Below, piece by piece: positions 3,174 to 31,535 of a stretch of 64,000 nt of DNA (positions are counted from its first letter, which is position 1; each line of letters starts with the position of its first letter). Source of the stretch: Candidatus Zixiibacteriota bacterium (GTDB lineage: Bacteria; Zixibacteria; MSB-5A5; GN15; FEB-12); assembly GCA_022571985.1 (NCBI GenBank), contig JACZWU010000002.1:62001-126000 (forward strand), given 5' to 3'. Made by a program: the position numbers and the translations under genes. The notes beneath the pieces were generated by a model. It saw only the letters and a program-made list of their open reading frames with translations. It was not told where the DNA came from and ran no database searches.

Positions 3174-3317
3174 TAGGGGCATAGAGTTCCATGCCAGAAC
3201 TCACTGAGCAGCCAGTTAGAACATCGGGATAATCTTGACATTACTGATGAGATGATGTTTTATCCGTATGTTTAAGTGAAATGCAATCAGTTACATATTG
3301 CATGTTGGAGGTGTGAA

Positions 3318-3683
3318 GTGCGTGGGATCATAGTCGTTTGTATTAGTCTAATTTTAATGGCGTGTGGTGCGGTTGTTGATGTCGTTACTTTAGATGAAAC
3401 CGCGAGAGCTAAAACGACTAAAATCGATGTTTTTACATCATATGCAAGTATTGACCATGAGTATAAAGAAATAGCAGTACTTTCAGCCAATGATCAAGGA
3501 TGGGGTCGGAAAGAGTCAGAGTTAATAGAAAAATTGAAGGAAAAAGCAATGAAGCTTGGTGCTAACGGTATAGTATTGGTCGGATTAAAAGAATCTCATG
3601 CTGGTTCAGTACCAATTGGAGACTCTTGGTTCAATATCAATGAGCGTATTGTTAGAGTTGTTGCAATAATTTATACTGATTAG
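3318..3683 (+). CDS. Small predicted lipoprotein
   Basis: About 121 residues. GTG at 3318 is chosen because GGAGG sits at 3307-3311, six bases upstream. An in-frame ATG at 3276 would put 14 polar/Cys-rich residues before the signal sequence. The protein then starts with RGIIVVCISLILMAC: a hydrophobic stretch and lipobox LMAC, so lipidation at that Cys and membrane anchoring are expected. The mature part holds a helix-rich KLKEKAMKLGANGIVLVG segment, a pattern seen in small lipoproteins and heavy-metal-binding-like (YbjQ-like) folds. No specific function is recognised. It stands alone between recA and the STAS gene. Confidence 0.7.
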   Translation: MRGIIVVCISLILMACGAVVDVVTLDETARAKTTKIDVFTSYASIDHEYKEIAVLSANDQGWGRKESELIEKLKEKAMKLGANGIVLVGLKESHAGSVPIGDSWFNINERIVRVVAIIYTD

Positions 3684-3828
3684 CTCCTAGTCTCCCCCCA
3701 CTTTCCGCTTGATTTTTTGGGTGGAGGTGGTAACTTTTGGGCTGTTCGAATTACCGAAGGCTCAAGGGCTTTCTCTAACCGATCTGACAGGAAAAGGCTG
3801 TAGGGACACTCTGGAAAGGTAGGATTTG

Positions 3829-4222: not shown

Positions 4223-4858
4223 TCAGTCCAAACGCCAATCACACGGCCTGTATTTTGGGTTCCAGATAATTTGTGGTTTAATATATTGAGTCCAGCTATT
4301 TACTAGGCGGATATCCACAACTGCACAACTGTCTGCTTTAACCGATACGATGTCAATCGTCGACATCCCGCAAGGGGAGTTAAGCGCATACATGGCCGAA
4401 GGAGGAATCGGTTCAATATGTACCACAATAAAACTGTCTGGTCTAACTTGGATAGTATCTACTCCCCAATCATTTGAATCAGAGTCGCTTGGTGTACTCG
4501 GTGGAGCTGGAAATGACACCACAACTTGATAGTTGCCTACGGGAATACTATTGAATATGTAATTTCCAAGAGAATCGGCAGTTATCTGGATGTTCAGAAA
4601 CTCATCGTTATAGAAACCCATATCCCTGGCAATGAATATGCTATTATTTAATTTCATTTTTATAGTGTCTGGCATCTTATTTAGATAAAGGCTGGCGTAT
4701 GGAAGCGGTTTATTAAAGCAGTCATAAGCAGTCCCTTCAATGCCGCCTAATCTGGGACTGAAATTAGGTTTGGTTTCTACGTTTTCACTCCCTCCATAGC
4801 CTTTGTTGCAAGTCTGTAGAGATATAAGCAGTAATAGCAATAAGTATCTTTTCAACAT
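4223..4858 (-). CDS. Lipoprotein with carboxypeptidase-regulatory-like domain (paralogue A)
   Basis: About 211 residues. The start at 4858 is set by GAGG 8 nt upstream; a further in-frame ATG at 4873 lies upstream of that site. The signal sequence MLKRYLLLLLLISLQTC ends in a lipobox-like LQTC. The mature part has GGIEGTAYDCFNKPLPYASLY and, later, ADSLGNYIFNSIPVGNYQVV: the start and end of a CarboxypepD_reg-like beta-sandwich, a fold common in exported FCB proteins. A second conserved block runs from IQVRPDSFIVVHIEPIPPSA to the C-terminal WNPKYRPCDW. Function unknown; probably periplasmic or surface-exposed. It is a tandem duplicate of the next gene (4927-5562). Confidence 0.8.
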   Translation of the reverse strand: MLKRYLLLLLLISLQTCNKGYGGSENVETKPNFSPRLGGIEGTAYDCFNKPLPYASLYLNKMPDTIKMKLNNSIFIARDMGFYNDEFLNIQITADSLGNYIFNSIPVGNYQVVVSFPAPPSTPSDSDSNDWGVDTIQVRPDSFIVVHIEPIPPSAMYALNSPCGMSTIDIVSVKADSCAVVDIRLVNSWTQYIKPQIIWNPKYRPCDWRLD

Positions 4859-4926
4859 TTTTGAAACCTCCATAAATGTGACAAGGCCGGACTCAAACCG
4901 TTTCGTTCAGTCAGCGCTTTTTTTGA

Positions 4927-5562
4927 TTAATTTATATTCCAATCACACGGTCTGTATTTTGGGTTCCAGATAATTTGTGATTTCATTTCTTCAGTCCAGG
5001 GATCTGCTAGGCGGATATCCACAACTGCACAACTGTCTGCTTTAACCGATACGATGTCAATCGCCGACATCCCGCAAGGGGAGTTAAGCGCATACATGGC
5101 CGAAGGAGGAATCGGTTCAATGTGTACCACAATAAAACTGTCTGGTCTAACTTGGATAGTATCTACCCCCCAATCGATTGTATTAGTGCCGTTTTGTGAT
5201 GATGGTGGACTCGGAAATAACTCTACAACTTGGTAGTTGCCTACAGGAACACTTTCGAACATGAAATTGCCGAGCGAATCTGCCGTAATCTGGATGTTAA
5301 GAAATCCATCATTGTATAAGCTTAAATCTCTGAAGATGGCAACCTTATCTCGAATTTTCATTTTCTGCGTGGCAGGCATTTTATTCAAGTATAGACTAGC
5401 ATATGGTAATGGCTTATTAAAGCAGTCATAGGCTGTCCCGACTATTCCGCCGAATTTAGTATCGGAACCCGATAGGTTCTCTATATTTTCATTCGTCCGA
5501 TATTCCTTGTGGCAAGCCGATAGTGAGACAACTATCAGCAGCAATATGAGTCTCTTGGTCAT
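4927..5562 (-). CDS. Lipoprotein with carboxypeptidase-regulatory-like domain (paralogue B)
   Basis: 211 residues with the same architecture as paralogue A: signal MTKRLILLLIVVSLSAC with lipobox LSAC, then a CarboxypepD_reg-like domain (GTAYDCFNKPLPYASLYL to LGNFMFESVPVGNYQVV), then the conserved C-terminal block ending YRPCDWNIN. GGGAGG lies 9 nt before the ATG. The pair sits head-to-tail with 68 bp between them. The N-terminal halves have diverged clearly while a 169-bp stretch near the 3' ends is almost identical (see findings). Function unknown. Confidence 0.82.
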   Translation of the reverse strand: MTKRLILLLIVVSLSACHKEYRTNENIENLSGSDTKFGGIVGTAYDCFNKPLPYASLYLNKMPATQKMKIRDKVAIFRDLSLYNDGFLNIQITADSLGNFMFESVPVGNYQVVELFPSPPSSQNGTNTIDWGVDTIQVRPDSFIVVHIEPIPPSAMYALNSPCGMSAIDIVSVKADSCAVVDIRLADPWTEEMKSQIIWNPKYRPCDWNIN

Positions 5563-5772: not shown

Positions 5773-6825
5773 ATGGCCTTAGACATTGAAAAACTCTTAG
5801 GAGCAGATAAATCACTTTTAACCCACCAGTGTAAAACTATCGACAAATCGATGCTGCACCTGCCGGGACCCGACTTTTTAGACAGAGTCACCTCGGATTC
5901 CGACCGCAGCTCGGCAGTGCTCAGCTCTTTAAGCTCACTTTTTGGTCATGGCCGCCTGTCTGGAACCGGCCATCTCTCGATTCTACCAATTGACCAGGGC
6001 ATAGAGCACTCCGCCGGAGCTTCTTTTGCACCAAACCCGATATATTTTGACCCGGCCAGATTAGTAGAGCTGGCAATCGAGGGCGGCTGCAACGGCGTGG
6101 CTTCCACTTTCGGAGCGCTGGGCTCGGTATCGCGCAAATATGCTCACAAAATTCCGTTTATAGTTAAACTTAACCATAATGAAATGCTGACTTTTCCCAA
6201 TCGCTTCGACCAGGTCATGTTCGCCCGGGCGCATGACGCCTTTAATCTTGGCGCGGTCGGGGTTGGCGCCACTATTTATTTTGGTTCCGACCAGGGTATG
6301 CGGCAGCTTGAAGAAGTCAGCGAGGCTTTTTCCGAAGCTCATGAGCTGGGAATGTTTACAGTCCTCTGGTGTTATCTTCGCAATCCGGCTTTCAAGGTAG
6401 ACGGTATAGATTATCACAGCGCCGCGGATTTAACCGGTCAGGCCAATCACCTTGGAGTTTCAATTGAGGCCGACATCATTAAACAAAAACTACCGGAAAC
6501 AAATAATGGTTACGGCGCTCTCAAATTCGGTAAAACGCACCAGAAAGTCTATGACGAACTAACGTCAGACAACCCTATCGACTTGACCCGCTATCAAATC
6601 GCCAACTGCTATATGGGACGGATAAGTATGATAAACTCCGGCGGCGCCTCAGGCGGTGATTCAGATCTGGTGCAGGCTGTGCGCACGGCGGTCATAAACA
6701 AACGTGCCGGCGGTACCGGACTTATATCGGGACGCAAAGCCTTTCAAAGGCCGATGAAAGAAGGCGTGGAACTCTTAAATGCAATTCAGGACGTTTACTT
6801 AAGCGATAAAGTCACAGTGGCTTAG
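5773..6825 (+). CDS. fbaB: Class I fructose-bisphosphate aldolase (DhnA/FbaB family)
   Basis: Cleaves fructose 1,6-bisphosphate to glyceraldehyde 3-phosphate and DHAP (and the reverse), through a lysine Schiff base. The length of 350 residues matches E. coli FbaB. The family pattern is clear: [13 protein letters not shown] near residue 70, the barrel segments [10 protein letters not shown] and [10 protein letters not shown], a lysine in the strand ADIIKQKLP (candidate Schiff-base Lys), and the phosphate-binding loops [13 protein letters not shown] and [15 protein letters not shown] 5773 has GGAG 8 nt upstream. It stands alone, with no glycolysis operon around it. Confidence 0.95.
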
Positions 6826-6906
6826 CTCTGGAAAACCTGCAGCAGTTGTCGGCCGGCCGGCCGCAGGTAAATAGATTAGTAACTCCATAAATTGTAAATT
6901 TTTCCC

Positions 6907-6934
6907 TTGACAAAGATTTCTGATTTGTTAAATT
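6907..6934 (+). promoter_or_regulatory. Sigma70-type promoter of the structured RNA candidate
   Basis: TTGACA at 6907-6912, a 16-nt spacer, and TAAATT at 6929-6934. The predicted start is near 6941. It has the same geometry as the tRNA-Lys promoter in this window (TTGACT, 16 nt, TATTTT). Confidence 0.55.
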
Positions 6935-6940
6935 GTAAAG

Positions 6941-7332
6941 GAATTGGATGTGTGTTCCCTTTGGTATCACGGAGTTTGCAACTGTGATATTACTGGACGT
7001 CATTGGGGACAAGTTAGGTAATCGGGAGGAGTACGGGAATTTTGATTGTTCTGCTGTACTCGACCTTTCTAATTTTATAATAGAAACTTCTCTCCCGAGA
7101 CAAAATATAAATAATTTCGATTCATGTTGCGCCTGATTGGCGGGCAGTGGAATTGTGTGAGGCAAAGTGTGCTGTTTTAAGTTTCGGCTTAAAATATGCT
7201 GGAGCGTTTGGTGCCGCCGCGTGTGCTTACCGGTCTAACCGGCTAAGTCATTTTCCCAATACCCTGTTGTCCCGGTGGGCTGAATCTTCAGAGGTGAATC
7301 CCCGCTTTTTGTCGAGGCGGGGTTTCTTTTTT
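6941..7332 (+). ncRNA. Candidate structured non-coding RNA, about 390 nt, no recognised family
   Basis: A 520-bp gap has a promoter at one end, an intrinsic terminator at the other, and dense exact helices between. Domain 1: TGTTCCC 6953-6959 with GGGGACA 7005-7011 encloses TATCAC 6965-6970 / GTGATA 6984-6989, topped by AGTT/AACT. Domain 2 is a three-way junction: TCGGGAG 7022-7028 / CTCCCGA 7092-7098 closes GAGTAC 7029-7034 / GTACTC 7056-7061 and TTTCTA 7066-7071 / TAGAAA 7081-7086. Domain 3: TTTTAAG 7175-7181 / CTTAAAA 7188-7194 with a TTTCGG loop, inside GGC-AAA 7161-7166 / TTT-GCC 7207-7215. Then comes hairpin CTTACCGGT 7226-7234 / ACCGGcTAAG 7238-7247, then the terminator. I checked for RNase P (GAGGAAAGTCC, ACAGAA), tmRNA (tRNA-like ends) and SRP RNA motifs and found none. 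Confidence 0.6.
7300..7332 (+). terminator. Intrinsic terminator of the RNA candidate
   Basis: CCCCGC 7300-7305 pairs with GCGGGG 7317-7322 across an 11-nt loop, followed by TTTCTTTTTT on the + strand. No + strand protein gene ends within 470 bp upstream, so it most simply ends the RNA above. Confidence 0.8.
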
Positions 7333-7345
7333 ATAAAATATTTTA

Positions 7346-7648
7346 TCAGTCAGGATTCTTCAAATTTACAACTGTAGCACCCCATGATCCGCCACTGCCG
7401 CTTTCCTGATAAAAACGCTCGACCCCAGGATGCCTTTTCAGAAGTGATTCCACCATACGTCGCTTAACTCCTTTACCCTTGCCATGTACAATGCGAATTG
7501 CATAAATCTTTTTTTCCAGAGCTGCTCGTATATACTCTGCGACAACTTCTGTAGTTTCCCCGGCGGCAAACTGGTGTAAATCGAGTGTGCCGTCTATGGG
7601 ATATTTAATCGATGTTTCGCTCTTAATGTTTTTTTCTTTTTCACTCAT
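7346..7648 (-). CDS. Stand-alone Smr-domain protein
   Basis: 100 residues. An Smr (MutS2 C-terminal-like) domain fills most of the protein. The two signatures are visible: TLDLH (about residue 20) and VHGKGKGVKR (about residue 54). Smr domains are nicking/RNA-cleaving endonuclease modules, often linked to ribosome-collision rescue or to recombination control. Here the domain is not attached to MutS2. The Shine-Dalgarno is weak. It is convergent with the RNA gene. Confidence 0.9.
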   Translation of the reverse strand: MSEKEKNIKSETSIKYPIDGTLDLHQFAAGETTEVVAEYIRAALEKKIYAIRIVHGKGKGVKRRMVESLLKRHPGVERFYQESGSGGSWGATVVNLKNPD

Positions 7649-7659
7649 ATTTCAATAAT

Positions 7660-7686
7660 AGTCATGCTGAGCCTGTCGAAGCATGG
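7660..7686. repeat. Dispersed intergenic repeat, short 'TGAGCCTGTCGAAG' module
   Basis: Contains CTGAGCCTGTCGAAG. The same module recurs near 13420, in 31503-31518 and, changed or reverse-complemented, near 9375, 10230, 10325 and 19135. Confidence 0.6.
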
Positions 7687-7740
7687 TTGTTCAAGATATG
7701 CTTGCATAATAATCTTCCAAGTAGTTTATTTGAAGTCAAC

Positions 7741-9227: not shown

Positions 9228-9266
9228 CCATTTCCGTGGGCGGCAGATGTCCTCATCTGCCCCATT
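9228..9266. repeat. Dispersed repeat 'GTGGGCGGCAGA' module
   Basis: TTCCGTGGGCGGCAGATG, then TCCTCATCTGCCCC: an inverted repeat GGCAGATG / CATCTGCC forming a short hairpin. Related copies occur at 10180-10204, 19080-19113 and 43630-43640. Confidence 0.65.
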
Positions 9267-9316
9267 GATTGAAACCCACCAAAATGGTGGGCCACCTAGC
9301 GATCATGACTGTTTTT

Positions 9317-9407
9317 ATTTTGTCATTCTCGCGCAGGCGGGAATCCATCTTTTACAATCGTCATCCTTCGACTCCCACGGGACATTGTCCGCTCAGGATG
9401 ACGAGTA
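9317..9407. repeat. Composite dispersed repeat
   Basis: Two modules side by side: GTCATTCTCGCGCAGGCGGGAATCCATC (a degenerate relative of the 56-nt element at 21902) and CATCCTTCGACTCCCACGGGACATTGTCCGCTCAGGATG, which is a hairpin (CATCCT / AGGATG). Confidence 0.6.
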
Positions 9408-9465
9408 ATAGTATGATTCAAGTAACGTCAGAATTGCAAAAGGGTATTGCCACTTGCTCAAGTCT

Positions 9466-10173
9466 ATGAACAAAGAAACAGATGGATATCTAAGCGTTTT
9501 TGGAACAGCACTTCTTCAGTCGATTGTAGACTTGTGGGAAAAGCTAGAAGAGAAGCCCGAAAAAAGACCGAATCAAGTTCAAACAAACGTGGTGGAGAAC
9601 GGATTGGCCATTGCCATTATAATTCTTACTATGGCAGTTGTTGAGTCTTTGCTAAATCGCACAAGATACATTATGCATTGCCGCAATATCCATAATATTC
9701 CCGAGAAAGAGAAAGAGTCATTAGTTAGCTTCTTTAGACTCAGATTCAAGAAACGTGGCCTTGCCAATAGACTGGAAGAATTGTACGTCATACGTGATGT
9801 TATTCTCCATAATCACATATGGGACGCAGAGGTTCATAGAGAAGGGAAATTAACATTTACCAAACCGCCAATACTCGTACTTGGACATGGAGACAAGAAA
9901 TTCAAAAAGGTCTTAAATATTAACAATCGGTGTTCAAAAATCCTGCGCCTCAATCTTTTCCCTACCCGAATTTCGCGAAGAGACGCAAGGAAAGTGCTTC
10001 GAGTAGCATATGATATTCTCTATTCTGTTGAATCCGTTGATCAAAATTATTGTGTGGTGAGTTGGATGTCGGTTATATATATGAAGAAAGGTATGGAATT
10101 TTCCGAATTTATACTTAGAATATCTGGTGAATACAGTGATCCAATTCCCATTGCTGAATTGGCACCTGAATAA
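9466..10173 (+). CDS. Uncharacterised protein with a HEPN-like Rx4H motif
   Basis: About 235 residues, mostly helical, with a hydrophobic helix GLAIAIIILTMAVVESLLN (about residues 47-65). The segment ELYVIRDVILHNHIW (about residues 105-119) has R-x4-H followed by N, the active-site pattern of HEPN ribonucleases, set in a helix as expected. HEPN proteins are often toxins or defence nucleases. No MNT/nucleotidyltransferase partner lies beside it. It sits alone between two blocks of dispersed repeats and is more AT-rich than its neighbours, which suggests acquired DNA. A TTG at 9454 has a better-placed AAGGG (9440-9444) and is an alternative start. The HEPN call is a motif-level inference. Confidence 0.55.
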   Translation: MNKETDGYLSVFGTALLQSIVDLWEKLEEKPEKRPNQVQTNVVENGLAIAIIILTMAVVESLLNRTRYIMHCRNIHNIPEKEKESLVSFFRLRFKKRGLANRLEELYVIRDVILHNHIWDAEVHREGKLTFTKPPILVLGHGDKKFKKVLNINNRCSKILRLNLFPTRISRRDARKVLRVAYDILYSVESVDQNYCVVSWMSVIYMKKGMEFSEFILRISGEYSDPIPIAELAPE

Positions 10174-10179
10174 TTCTGT

Positions 10180-10345
10180 GGACGGCAGATGTTCTCATCT
10201 GGCCAGATATATCAACCAACATTTTTACTCGTCACCCTGAGCCTGCCTCCTTGGTCCCGAGTGTTTTGAGGGGTCAAAGGGAGCGAGTGAGTAAGTAAGT
10301 ACTTGAGATATACAGCGCCTACTTCGACAAGCTCAGTATGACGCT
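10180..10345. repeat. Cluster of dispersed repeat modules
   Basis: Holds GTGGACGGCAGATGTTCTCATCTGG (10178-10202), then GTCACCCTGAGCCTGCC, a direct repeat GAGTAAGTAAGTACTTG and CTTCGACAAGCTCAGTATGACG (inverted copy of the TGAGCCTGTCGAAG module). No coding sequence. Confidence 0.55.
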
Positions 10346-10464
10346 GTATGTAGGCGAATATAATATAAGAACAATCGCCACAGTTTCCGCCTTACTACTT
10401 CTTGCATTTCCCTCGATTTTCCGCTATTTTCTCACTCTAACTCAATAACCAATAAGAGAAAAAT

Positions 10465-12300: not shown

Positions 12301-13425
12301 ATGCCGTCAAAACTAAATCGCAAAGAAAAACCGCGTCTCTGGAAAGACCATTTAAGCAAAGACGCGGTCTCAGTTTTCTCCAAATGCATCAAAGATGCCT
12401 ATTCCAAATTTGATCAGAAACAATATGCCAAAGCTGTCTTGTCAGATGGTTTTTTGAAGTTGGAGCTAAAAGAACGCTTGAATAAAATAGCCGAGTCGCT
12501 CAAAGGTTTTTTACCGGTCGACTATGACGCTGCTGTTCGAATACTAATCGAAGTTGCGCCGCATGTCGGCACTTTCGAGAACTGGGCTTTGACTATTTAT
12601 ATTGAAAAGTTCGGGCTCAAAGATTTTCGAGTTTCAGTCAATGCTTTAGAAGAGCTGACCAGGTACGGTACCAGCGAATTTGCTATCCGGCCGTTTATAA
12701 TTCATCAGACGGCCAGGATGCTCCCGATTCTGATCAAGTGGACTAAGAGCGATAACGAGCATATCAGGAGACTGGCTGCCGAGGGCAGCCGTCCGCGCGG
12801 AGTCTGGGTGGCGCATATCGACGCTTTCAAAAAAGATGCGCGTCCTGTGATTAAAATACTTGAAAAGCTAAAAGCCGACGATTCACTTTATGTCCGCAAA
12901 GCTGTGGCTAATAACTTAAACGATATTTCCAAAGAACACCCGGACTTAGTAGCTAGTACCTGCAAAAAATGGCAAAAAGCGGGCGATGCTCGTACCGATT
13001 GGATTATCAAGCATGGCTGTCGCACACTGATCAAAAATGGTCACCCGCTGGCGATGAGCCTGTTTGGCTTTGCCAAAAAGCCAAATGTAAGAATTAAGTT
13101 GTTTTCGATCAAACCGGCCAAAGTCAAAATTGGTGACAGTGGCGTGGCCACTTTGGTTTTGAAGTTGAGTACAGATCAAAAATCTAAGCAGAAACTCTCG
13201 GTTGATTACAAAGTATATTTTGTATCAAAGAACGGTTCTAAGAATAAGAAATTGTTTAAGTGGGCGGTAAAATCAATTGATAGTCAAAACGATTTAACTT
13301 TAGAGAAAAAGCAGTTGTTCAAAGACCAGCTTACCCGCAAGCATTTCCCGGGAGCGCATAAGATAGAAGTATTGATAAATGGTGAAGTTGTGGCAAGTAA
13401 GAGCGTAGTGTTATCGTCACCCTGA
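12301..13425 (+). CDS. alkC: AlkC-type DNA alkylation repair glycosylase (HEAT-like repeats plus Ig-like tail)
   Basis: 374 residues. Removes alkylated bases such as 3-methyladenine. The HEAT-like repeat core runs to about residue 260; the diagnostic block is HIRRLAAEGSRPRGVW, followed by LKADDSLYVRKAVANNLNDI. Residues about 265-374 (VRIKLFSIKPAKVKIGD to EVLINGEVVASKSVVL) look like an Ig-like beta domain, as reported for one AlkC subtype. The ATG is 15 bp after pepF with only a weak Shine-Dalgarno, so it is likely translated from the pepF transcript. No ada-type regulator is nearby. Confidence 0.88.
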   Translation: MPSKLNRKEKPRLWKDHLSKDAVSVFSKCIKDAYSKFDQKQYAKAVLSDGFLKLELKERLNKIAESLKGFLPVDYDAAVRILIEVAPHVGTFENWALTIYIEKFGLKDFRVSVNALEELTRYGTSEFAIRPFIIHQTARMLPILIKWTKSDNEHIRRLAAEGSRPRGVWVAHIDAFKKDARPVIKILEKLKADDSLYVRKAVANNLNDISKEHPDLVASTCKKWQKAGDARTDWIIKHGCRTLIKNGHPLAMSLFGFAKKPNVRIKLFSIKPAKVKIGDSGVATLVLKLSTDQKSKQKLSVDYKVYFVSKNGSKNKKLFKWAVKSIDSQNDLTLEKKQLFKDQLTRKHFPGAHKIEVLINGEVVASKSVVLSSP

Positions 13426-13640
13426 GCCTGTCGAAGGGTCGAAGTTTCCTCTTCATAGTGAGCGGAGTCGAAGTATGGCTAATTCATGGCGTTCAAATCT
13501 GTGGTCGTATCAACGACTGGATTCTCGCATGCGCAAGAATGACGGAAAAAACGGGAGTGACAAAAAGAGTAAATTCATCACTCTGAGCGGACAAGATCCC
13601 GAAGCGAAGTTGAGGGTGTCGAAGAATCGAAGGGCATGTG
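13411..13640. repeat. Dispersed repeat cluster after alkC
   Basis: CACCCTGAGCCTGTCGAAGG overlaps the alkC stop; then GAGCGGAGTCGAAGTATGG, GGATTCTCGCATGCGCAAGAATGACGG (hairpin ATTCTCGCATGCG / CGCAAGAAT) and CACTCTGAGCGGACAAGATC with GGGTGTCGAAGAATCG. Non-coding. Confidence 0.6.
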
Positions 13641-31463: not shown

Positions 31464-31535
31464 TTTTTCGAGGTCCGCCCATCACGGCGGGTTCCCACTT
31501 GTCCTGAGCCTGTCGAAGGATCTGCCCTTTGGCAG
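31464..31535. repeat. Dispersed repeat modules
   Basis: GGTCCGCCCATCACGGCGGG (hairpin CCGCC / GGCGG), GTCCTGAGCCTGTCGAAGG, and CTGCCCTTTGGCAG (hairpin). It abuts the stop of the epimerase gene. Confidence 0.55.

Follow-up and report, generated by a model that had tools for sequence, protein, structure and literature searches.

In the window, i.e., the whole 64,000-nt stretch of DNA analysed here, which comes from an uncultured bacterium of the candidate phylum Zixibacteria, the gap in the coding map reported in a preliminary description was confirmed at 6826-7345. It is flanked by genes for a DeoC/LacD-type aldolase (5773-6825, +) and for a Smr-domain protein of 100 residues (7346-7648, -). 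The same description had placed a promoter and an intrinsic terminator in this gap, and both patterns are present, at 6907-6934 and 7300-7332. They frame a proposed RNA gene, the elements of which are listed below.

6907-6934, +: putative sigma-70-like promoter, TTGACA-N16-TAAATT with TG before the second hexamer, by consensus match
6941-7332, +: proposed RNA gene of about 392 nt, from conservation and fold tests, its start placed from the promoter
6954-7010, +: 5' hairpin (6954-6959/7005-7010), from pair-probability prediction
6966-6988, +: P1, predicted hairpin of 7 bp with a 9-nt loop, invariant in four genomes
7006-7273, +: P2, predicted long-range helix 7006-7012/7267-7273 (GGGACAA/UUGUCCC), invariant, pair probability 0.47-0.77
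7017-7263, +: P3, predicted helix 7017-7020/7260-7263, inside P2
7022-7098, +: D1, predicted three-way junction with a 7-bp closing stem and arms at 7029-7061 and 7066-7086
7118-7155, +: D2, predicted hairpin, two pairs of which vary by one-sided changes that keep pairing
7169-7214, +: D3, predicted imperfect hairpin with three one-sided changes that keep pairing
7227-7246, +: D4, predicted hairpin, formed in each copy in a register that differs between the three copies
7248-7298, +: block of 51 nt with 0 differences in three full-length copies, holding the 3' arms of P2 and P3
7300-7332, +: intrinsic terminator, a 9-bp stem (7300-7322) followed by TTTCTTTTTT, identical in relatives

The region lies at the same place and in the same order in four members of the genus, namely the window's own genome (G000) and three relatives, two of which carry full copies (G002, JACZXB010000003.1; L071, JADFPZ010000061.1) and one a copy cut by the contig end (G001, JADFLZ010000244.1). 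The promoter is conserved in all four, with TAAGTT as the second hexamer in one of them, and no terminator-like site other than 7300-7322 was found from 6750 to 7700. As patterns, promoter and terminator each occur near chance expectation in 951 bases, and neither is rarer than in shuffled sequence. An own promoter (putative, as a consensus match), an own terminator and noncoding conservation, by which a stand-alone structured noncoding RNA is recognised, are all found at this locus.

Conservation of the reading frame at 6948-7136 had been named beforehand as an outcome speaking against an RNA, and the comparison of the two longest + strand frames of the region instead favours RNA. The ATG of this frame is ACG in all three relatives, with an in-frame stop in G001 and a frameshift in G002 and L071, and the frame at 7147-7377 is likewise broken, so neither of the two shows between-species conservation of a reading frame. 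A cis-acting leader or riboswitch was rejected because the next gene, the Smr gene, runs the opposite way, and the next + strand gene begins beyond it.

Two side observations concern the neighbourhood. Two adjacent and clearly related genes for putative secreted lipoproteins (4223-4873 and 4927-5562, -), one of them with a sub-threshold carboxypeptidase-regulatory-like match, are missing in G002 and L071 from the interval bounded by the STAS and aldolase genes, indicating a recent insertion or loss. A dispersed short repeat (GCTGAGCCTGTCGAAGCAT and relatives) occurs in three copies (7666-7684, 13421-13439 and 31503-31521, +) where none is expected by chance, and similar sequences lie at 9340-9405 and in gaps behind the aldolase gene of another genus, g4.

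Conservation and distribution

Between the window and G002, identity over 6941-7332 is 92.3% (three deleted bases, one inserted base), whereas the spacers at 6826-6879 and 7333-7348 reach only 71% and 73%; the flanking aldolase and Smr genes stand at 89.9% and 85%. In L071 the RNA region is 94.9% identical and the upstream spacer 74%. Other intergenic stretches of the neighbourhood gave no alignment, e.g., 3240-3696, 7607-7686 and most of 9231-10400, and dS of the aldolase gene is 0.48 between G000 and G002. Synonymous sites and spacers evolve much faster than the candidate RNA, and purifying selection acts on the DNA of this region. Measured against RNase P RNA, which shows 17 mismatches and 30 gap positions in G002 and seven mismatches in G001 relative to G000, the candidate changes at a somewhat higher rate. 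In G002, this RNase P RNA contains about 30 bases that its G000 counterpart lacks.

Covariance models built separately for the 5' half and the 3' half were run on the family and on 132 genomes of the phylum and found homologues only within the genus, each half being unique to this locus; a BLAST search of 80 genomes of the order with the 3' block was likewise negative beyond the genus. The surroundings of the aldolase and Smr genes in other genera hold no homologue either; in most of these genera the aldolase gene is followed by a short gap that lacks this RNA. Two long post-aldolase gaps, both in genus g4, contain unrelated sequence with nothing beyond chance words, and each starts with an ordinary terminator-like hairpin. 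DNA matches in genomes G003 and G009 (E about 0.008) were dismissed as chance matches of 26-30 bases in unrelated settings, one of them inside an elongation-factor-like gene. DNA searches of phages and plasmids gave no match, and viral contigs yielded one 17-base match that neither half-model supports and no match to two further patterns. Among 85,000 species genomes, an 18-base pattern was found in three genus members and three other records; the latter, two of them Bacillus-type and one Bacteroidales, gave no match to the model. On the sequences compared, the candidate RNA appears to have arisen in, or become unrecognisable outside, one genus. The suggestion of an RNA class of this lineage thus holds at the level of one genus and fails beyond it, where no homologue was found.

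Predicted fold and its statistical standing

The density of perfect helices, put forward in the preliminary description as far above chance, turned out to be at chance level and was discarded as evidence for an RNA. Exact Watson-Crick stems of 5 bp or longer number 51 (50.8 in dinucleotide shuffles), those of 6 bp or longer 17 (12.7 in shuffles) and those of 7 bp or longer 5 (3.0 in shuffles), and the observed counts were reached by 21-74 of 150 shuffles. The folding energy of the window's single sequence is likewise weak evidence, with z -1.5 to -2.1 including the terminator and about -1.2, only marginally better than shuffles, when it is left out. The single copies of G002 and L071 give z -4.5 and -5.2, respectively. 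When the three full copies are folded as a consensus, z is -4.5 against column-shuffled alignments (reached by 0 of 150), and -2.7 (1/150) and -2.8 (2/200) without the terminator; the - strand also folds better than its own shuffles (z -2.2). On the + strand, the consensus fold is moderately better than chance.

D1 and D2 stand out in the alignment fold tests (z -3.0 for 7003-7100 and z -3.3, respectively). The three-way junction closed by the 7-bp stem 7022-7028/7092-7098, which had been recognised from the window copy, is predicted in all three full-length copies, and its pairs are invariant. The window also has a perfect stem UUUUAAG/CUUAAAA at about 7174-7193, but changes in G002 disrupt it, and the alternative D3 pairing, which is kept in each of the three copies, was adopted instead.

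Variation is half as frequent in paired columns as in unpaired ones (19/254 versus 23/147, Fisher p 0.017), a partly circular test, since this alignment had also served to derive the fold. Among the 19 variable pairs of the consensus fold, 10 are kept on the + strand and none on the - strand, all 10 by way of G-U-type changes compatible with the + strand alone, and nine are broken in some copy. The 85 pairs of the named helices were picked by hand from predicted folds, so that their 100% pairing is not independent evidence; five of them vary, all still pair, and none changes on both sides. The named helices thus hold five one-sided consistent changes and no two-sided change, in four sequences that are about 92-95% alike and give covariation tests little power. 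Given that no two-sided compensatory change was seen, the exact fold is unproven and remains a model.

The segment 7005-7012 (GGGGACAA) can pair with either 6954-6959 or 7267-7273. The predicted probability of the 5' hairpin is about 0.84-0.9 in the first ~80 nt alone and 0.02-0.07 in the full RNA, the three full copies behave alike in this respect, and the only variable pair of the hairpin (U-G versus C-G) keeps pairing. Refolding from the 5' hairpin to P2 is accordingly a possible step, and a matter of prediction only.

Known RNA families and alternative explanations

None of 4227 Rfam families matched the window copy or its two relatives at the gathering cut-off, and the sub-threshold matches in the three copies were chance only, mostly on the terminator hairpin, so that the candidate belongs to no recognised family. 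RNase P RNA and tmRNA resemble it in length and in having a closing long-range helix, but their models do not match at this locus and find both elsewhere in the genome, at G000:C6:56311-56685 (RF00010, 293 bits) and G000:C2:206616-206974 (RF00023, 189 bits). SRP RNA is excluded here by the Rfam scan.

6S RNA folds into one rod interrupted by a central bubble and has a length of about 160-200 nt. It shares with the candidate the character of a stand-alone noncoding gene, but the candidate is about twice as long, multi-branched and without a match to RF00013. This model has no match anywhere in the 97.6% complete genome, and it also misses most of 14 control genomes, so a divergent 6S RNA could exist. 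With RNase P RNA and tmRNA located elsewhere, 6S RNA is the tested housekeeping RNA not found at another place. Nevertheless, the predicted folds contain no long hairpin with a large central bubble, the three copies give no Rfam signal, and sister genera, where a housekeeping RNA would be expected, hold no recognised relative; a very divergent version of a known housekeeping RNA is therefore highly improbable.

Among the large ornate bacterial RNAs OLE, ROOL and GOLLD (PMC12286853), OLE is about 600 nt long (PMC12054373) and many GOLLD RNAs exceed 800 nt. Like them, the candidate is stand-alone, long, noncoding, conserved over most of its length and, in its predicted fold, multi-domain; it differs in being shorter (~390 nt), matching none of them in Rfam, occurring in one Zixibacteria genus only, and being known here from sequence alone, with no two-sided covariation in four sequences. 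The smtA motif, a long candidate noncoding RNA with no assigned function (PMC11109978), can be likened to it by description only, both being intergenic, found by comparative analysis and longer than most riboswitches, and the copies of the present RNA are far too few to place it among candidates of that kind.

Three further readings bear on whether the region works as an independent RNA. It could be a trans-acting small regulatory RNA that base-pairs with mRNAs through conserved single-stranded seeds, for example 7099-7117 or 7248-7259, the rest being scaffold. Such an RNA would account for the own promoter and terminator, the conserved unpaired stretches and the restriction to one genus, which is usual for regulatory sRNAs. 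However, such RNAs are mostly shorter than the ~390 nt proposed here, and nearly the whole length is conserved instead of a seed alone. The Hfq protein (PF17209), which an Hfq-dependent sRNA presupposes, was not found in the 97.6% complete genome, making a classical Hfq-dependent antisense sRNA less likely, and the regulatory-RNA reading as a whole seems rather doubtful. A long 3' UTR of the aldolase mRNA, in which the RNA comes mostly from read-through, 7300-7322 is the aldolase terminator, and the structured part controls mRNA stability or yields a cut-out 3'-UTR-derived sRNA, is unlikely. It draws on 7300-7322 as the sole terminator-like site found between 6750 and 7700, on the constant neighbourhood of aldolase and RNA within the genus, and on a sister genus with a terminator-like hairpin directly behind its aldolase gene, yet a conserved promoter lies between the aldolase gene and the RNA, the spacer before that promoter is poorly conserved (71-74%), and most other genera have a short post-aldolase gap with no such RNA.

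The region might also be no RNA gene at all but a conserved DNA element, or intergenic sequence that decays slowly and carries chance hairpins, as the chance-level stem density, the small number of sequences and the z of -2.2 on the - strand would allow. This is improbable in view of 392 bases at 92-95% identity next to spacers at 71-74%, the conserved promoter and terminator that frame them, and stem changes that are G-U-compatible on the + strand only.

A probable genus-restricted RNA and its possible action

An RNA is the best reading because nucleotide conservation throughout the genus coincides with broken reading frames and with a conserved promoter and terminator. Hence, of the original proposal, the stand-alone structured RNA with no recognised family was retained as the best reading, and the helix-density argument for it was dropped. 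The locus is probably a new, genus-restricted, stand-alone structured RNA, and we consider it likely that the region is a true noncoding RNA gene, whether or not aldolase read-through also contributes to the transcript.

In the model proposed here, the RNA of about 392 nt would be transcribed from its own sigma-70-type promoter to its own terminator. During transcription, its 5' end could form the hairpin 6954-6959/7005-7010, and once the 3' block arrives, GGGACAA (7006-7012) might re-pair with UUGUCCC (7267-7273), the closure of P2 then enclosing a multi-branched domain that holds D1-D4. The folded RNA would work in trans, probably as the RNA part of a ribonucleoprotein (RNP). We hold this specific reading, in which the RNA is stand-alone, folded and active in trans, most likely within an RNP, to be about as likely as not. 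The more far-reaching version, a new class of ~390-nt structured RNA in one Zixibacteria genus that refolds co-transcriptionally and acts as an RNP or ribozyme with a function novel in bacteria, seems unlikely.

Bacterial RNAs that are long, structured and assigned to no family are rare, and unexpected activities have emerged for a few of them. The weight of the present candidate is limited by its occurrence in one genus only and by the lack of two-sided covariation in the four sequences. In the literature searched, no paper pairs Zixibacteria with noncoding RNA, and for this candidate phylum without described RNA biology the locus provides a defined sequence together with covariance models and a fold that can be tested.
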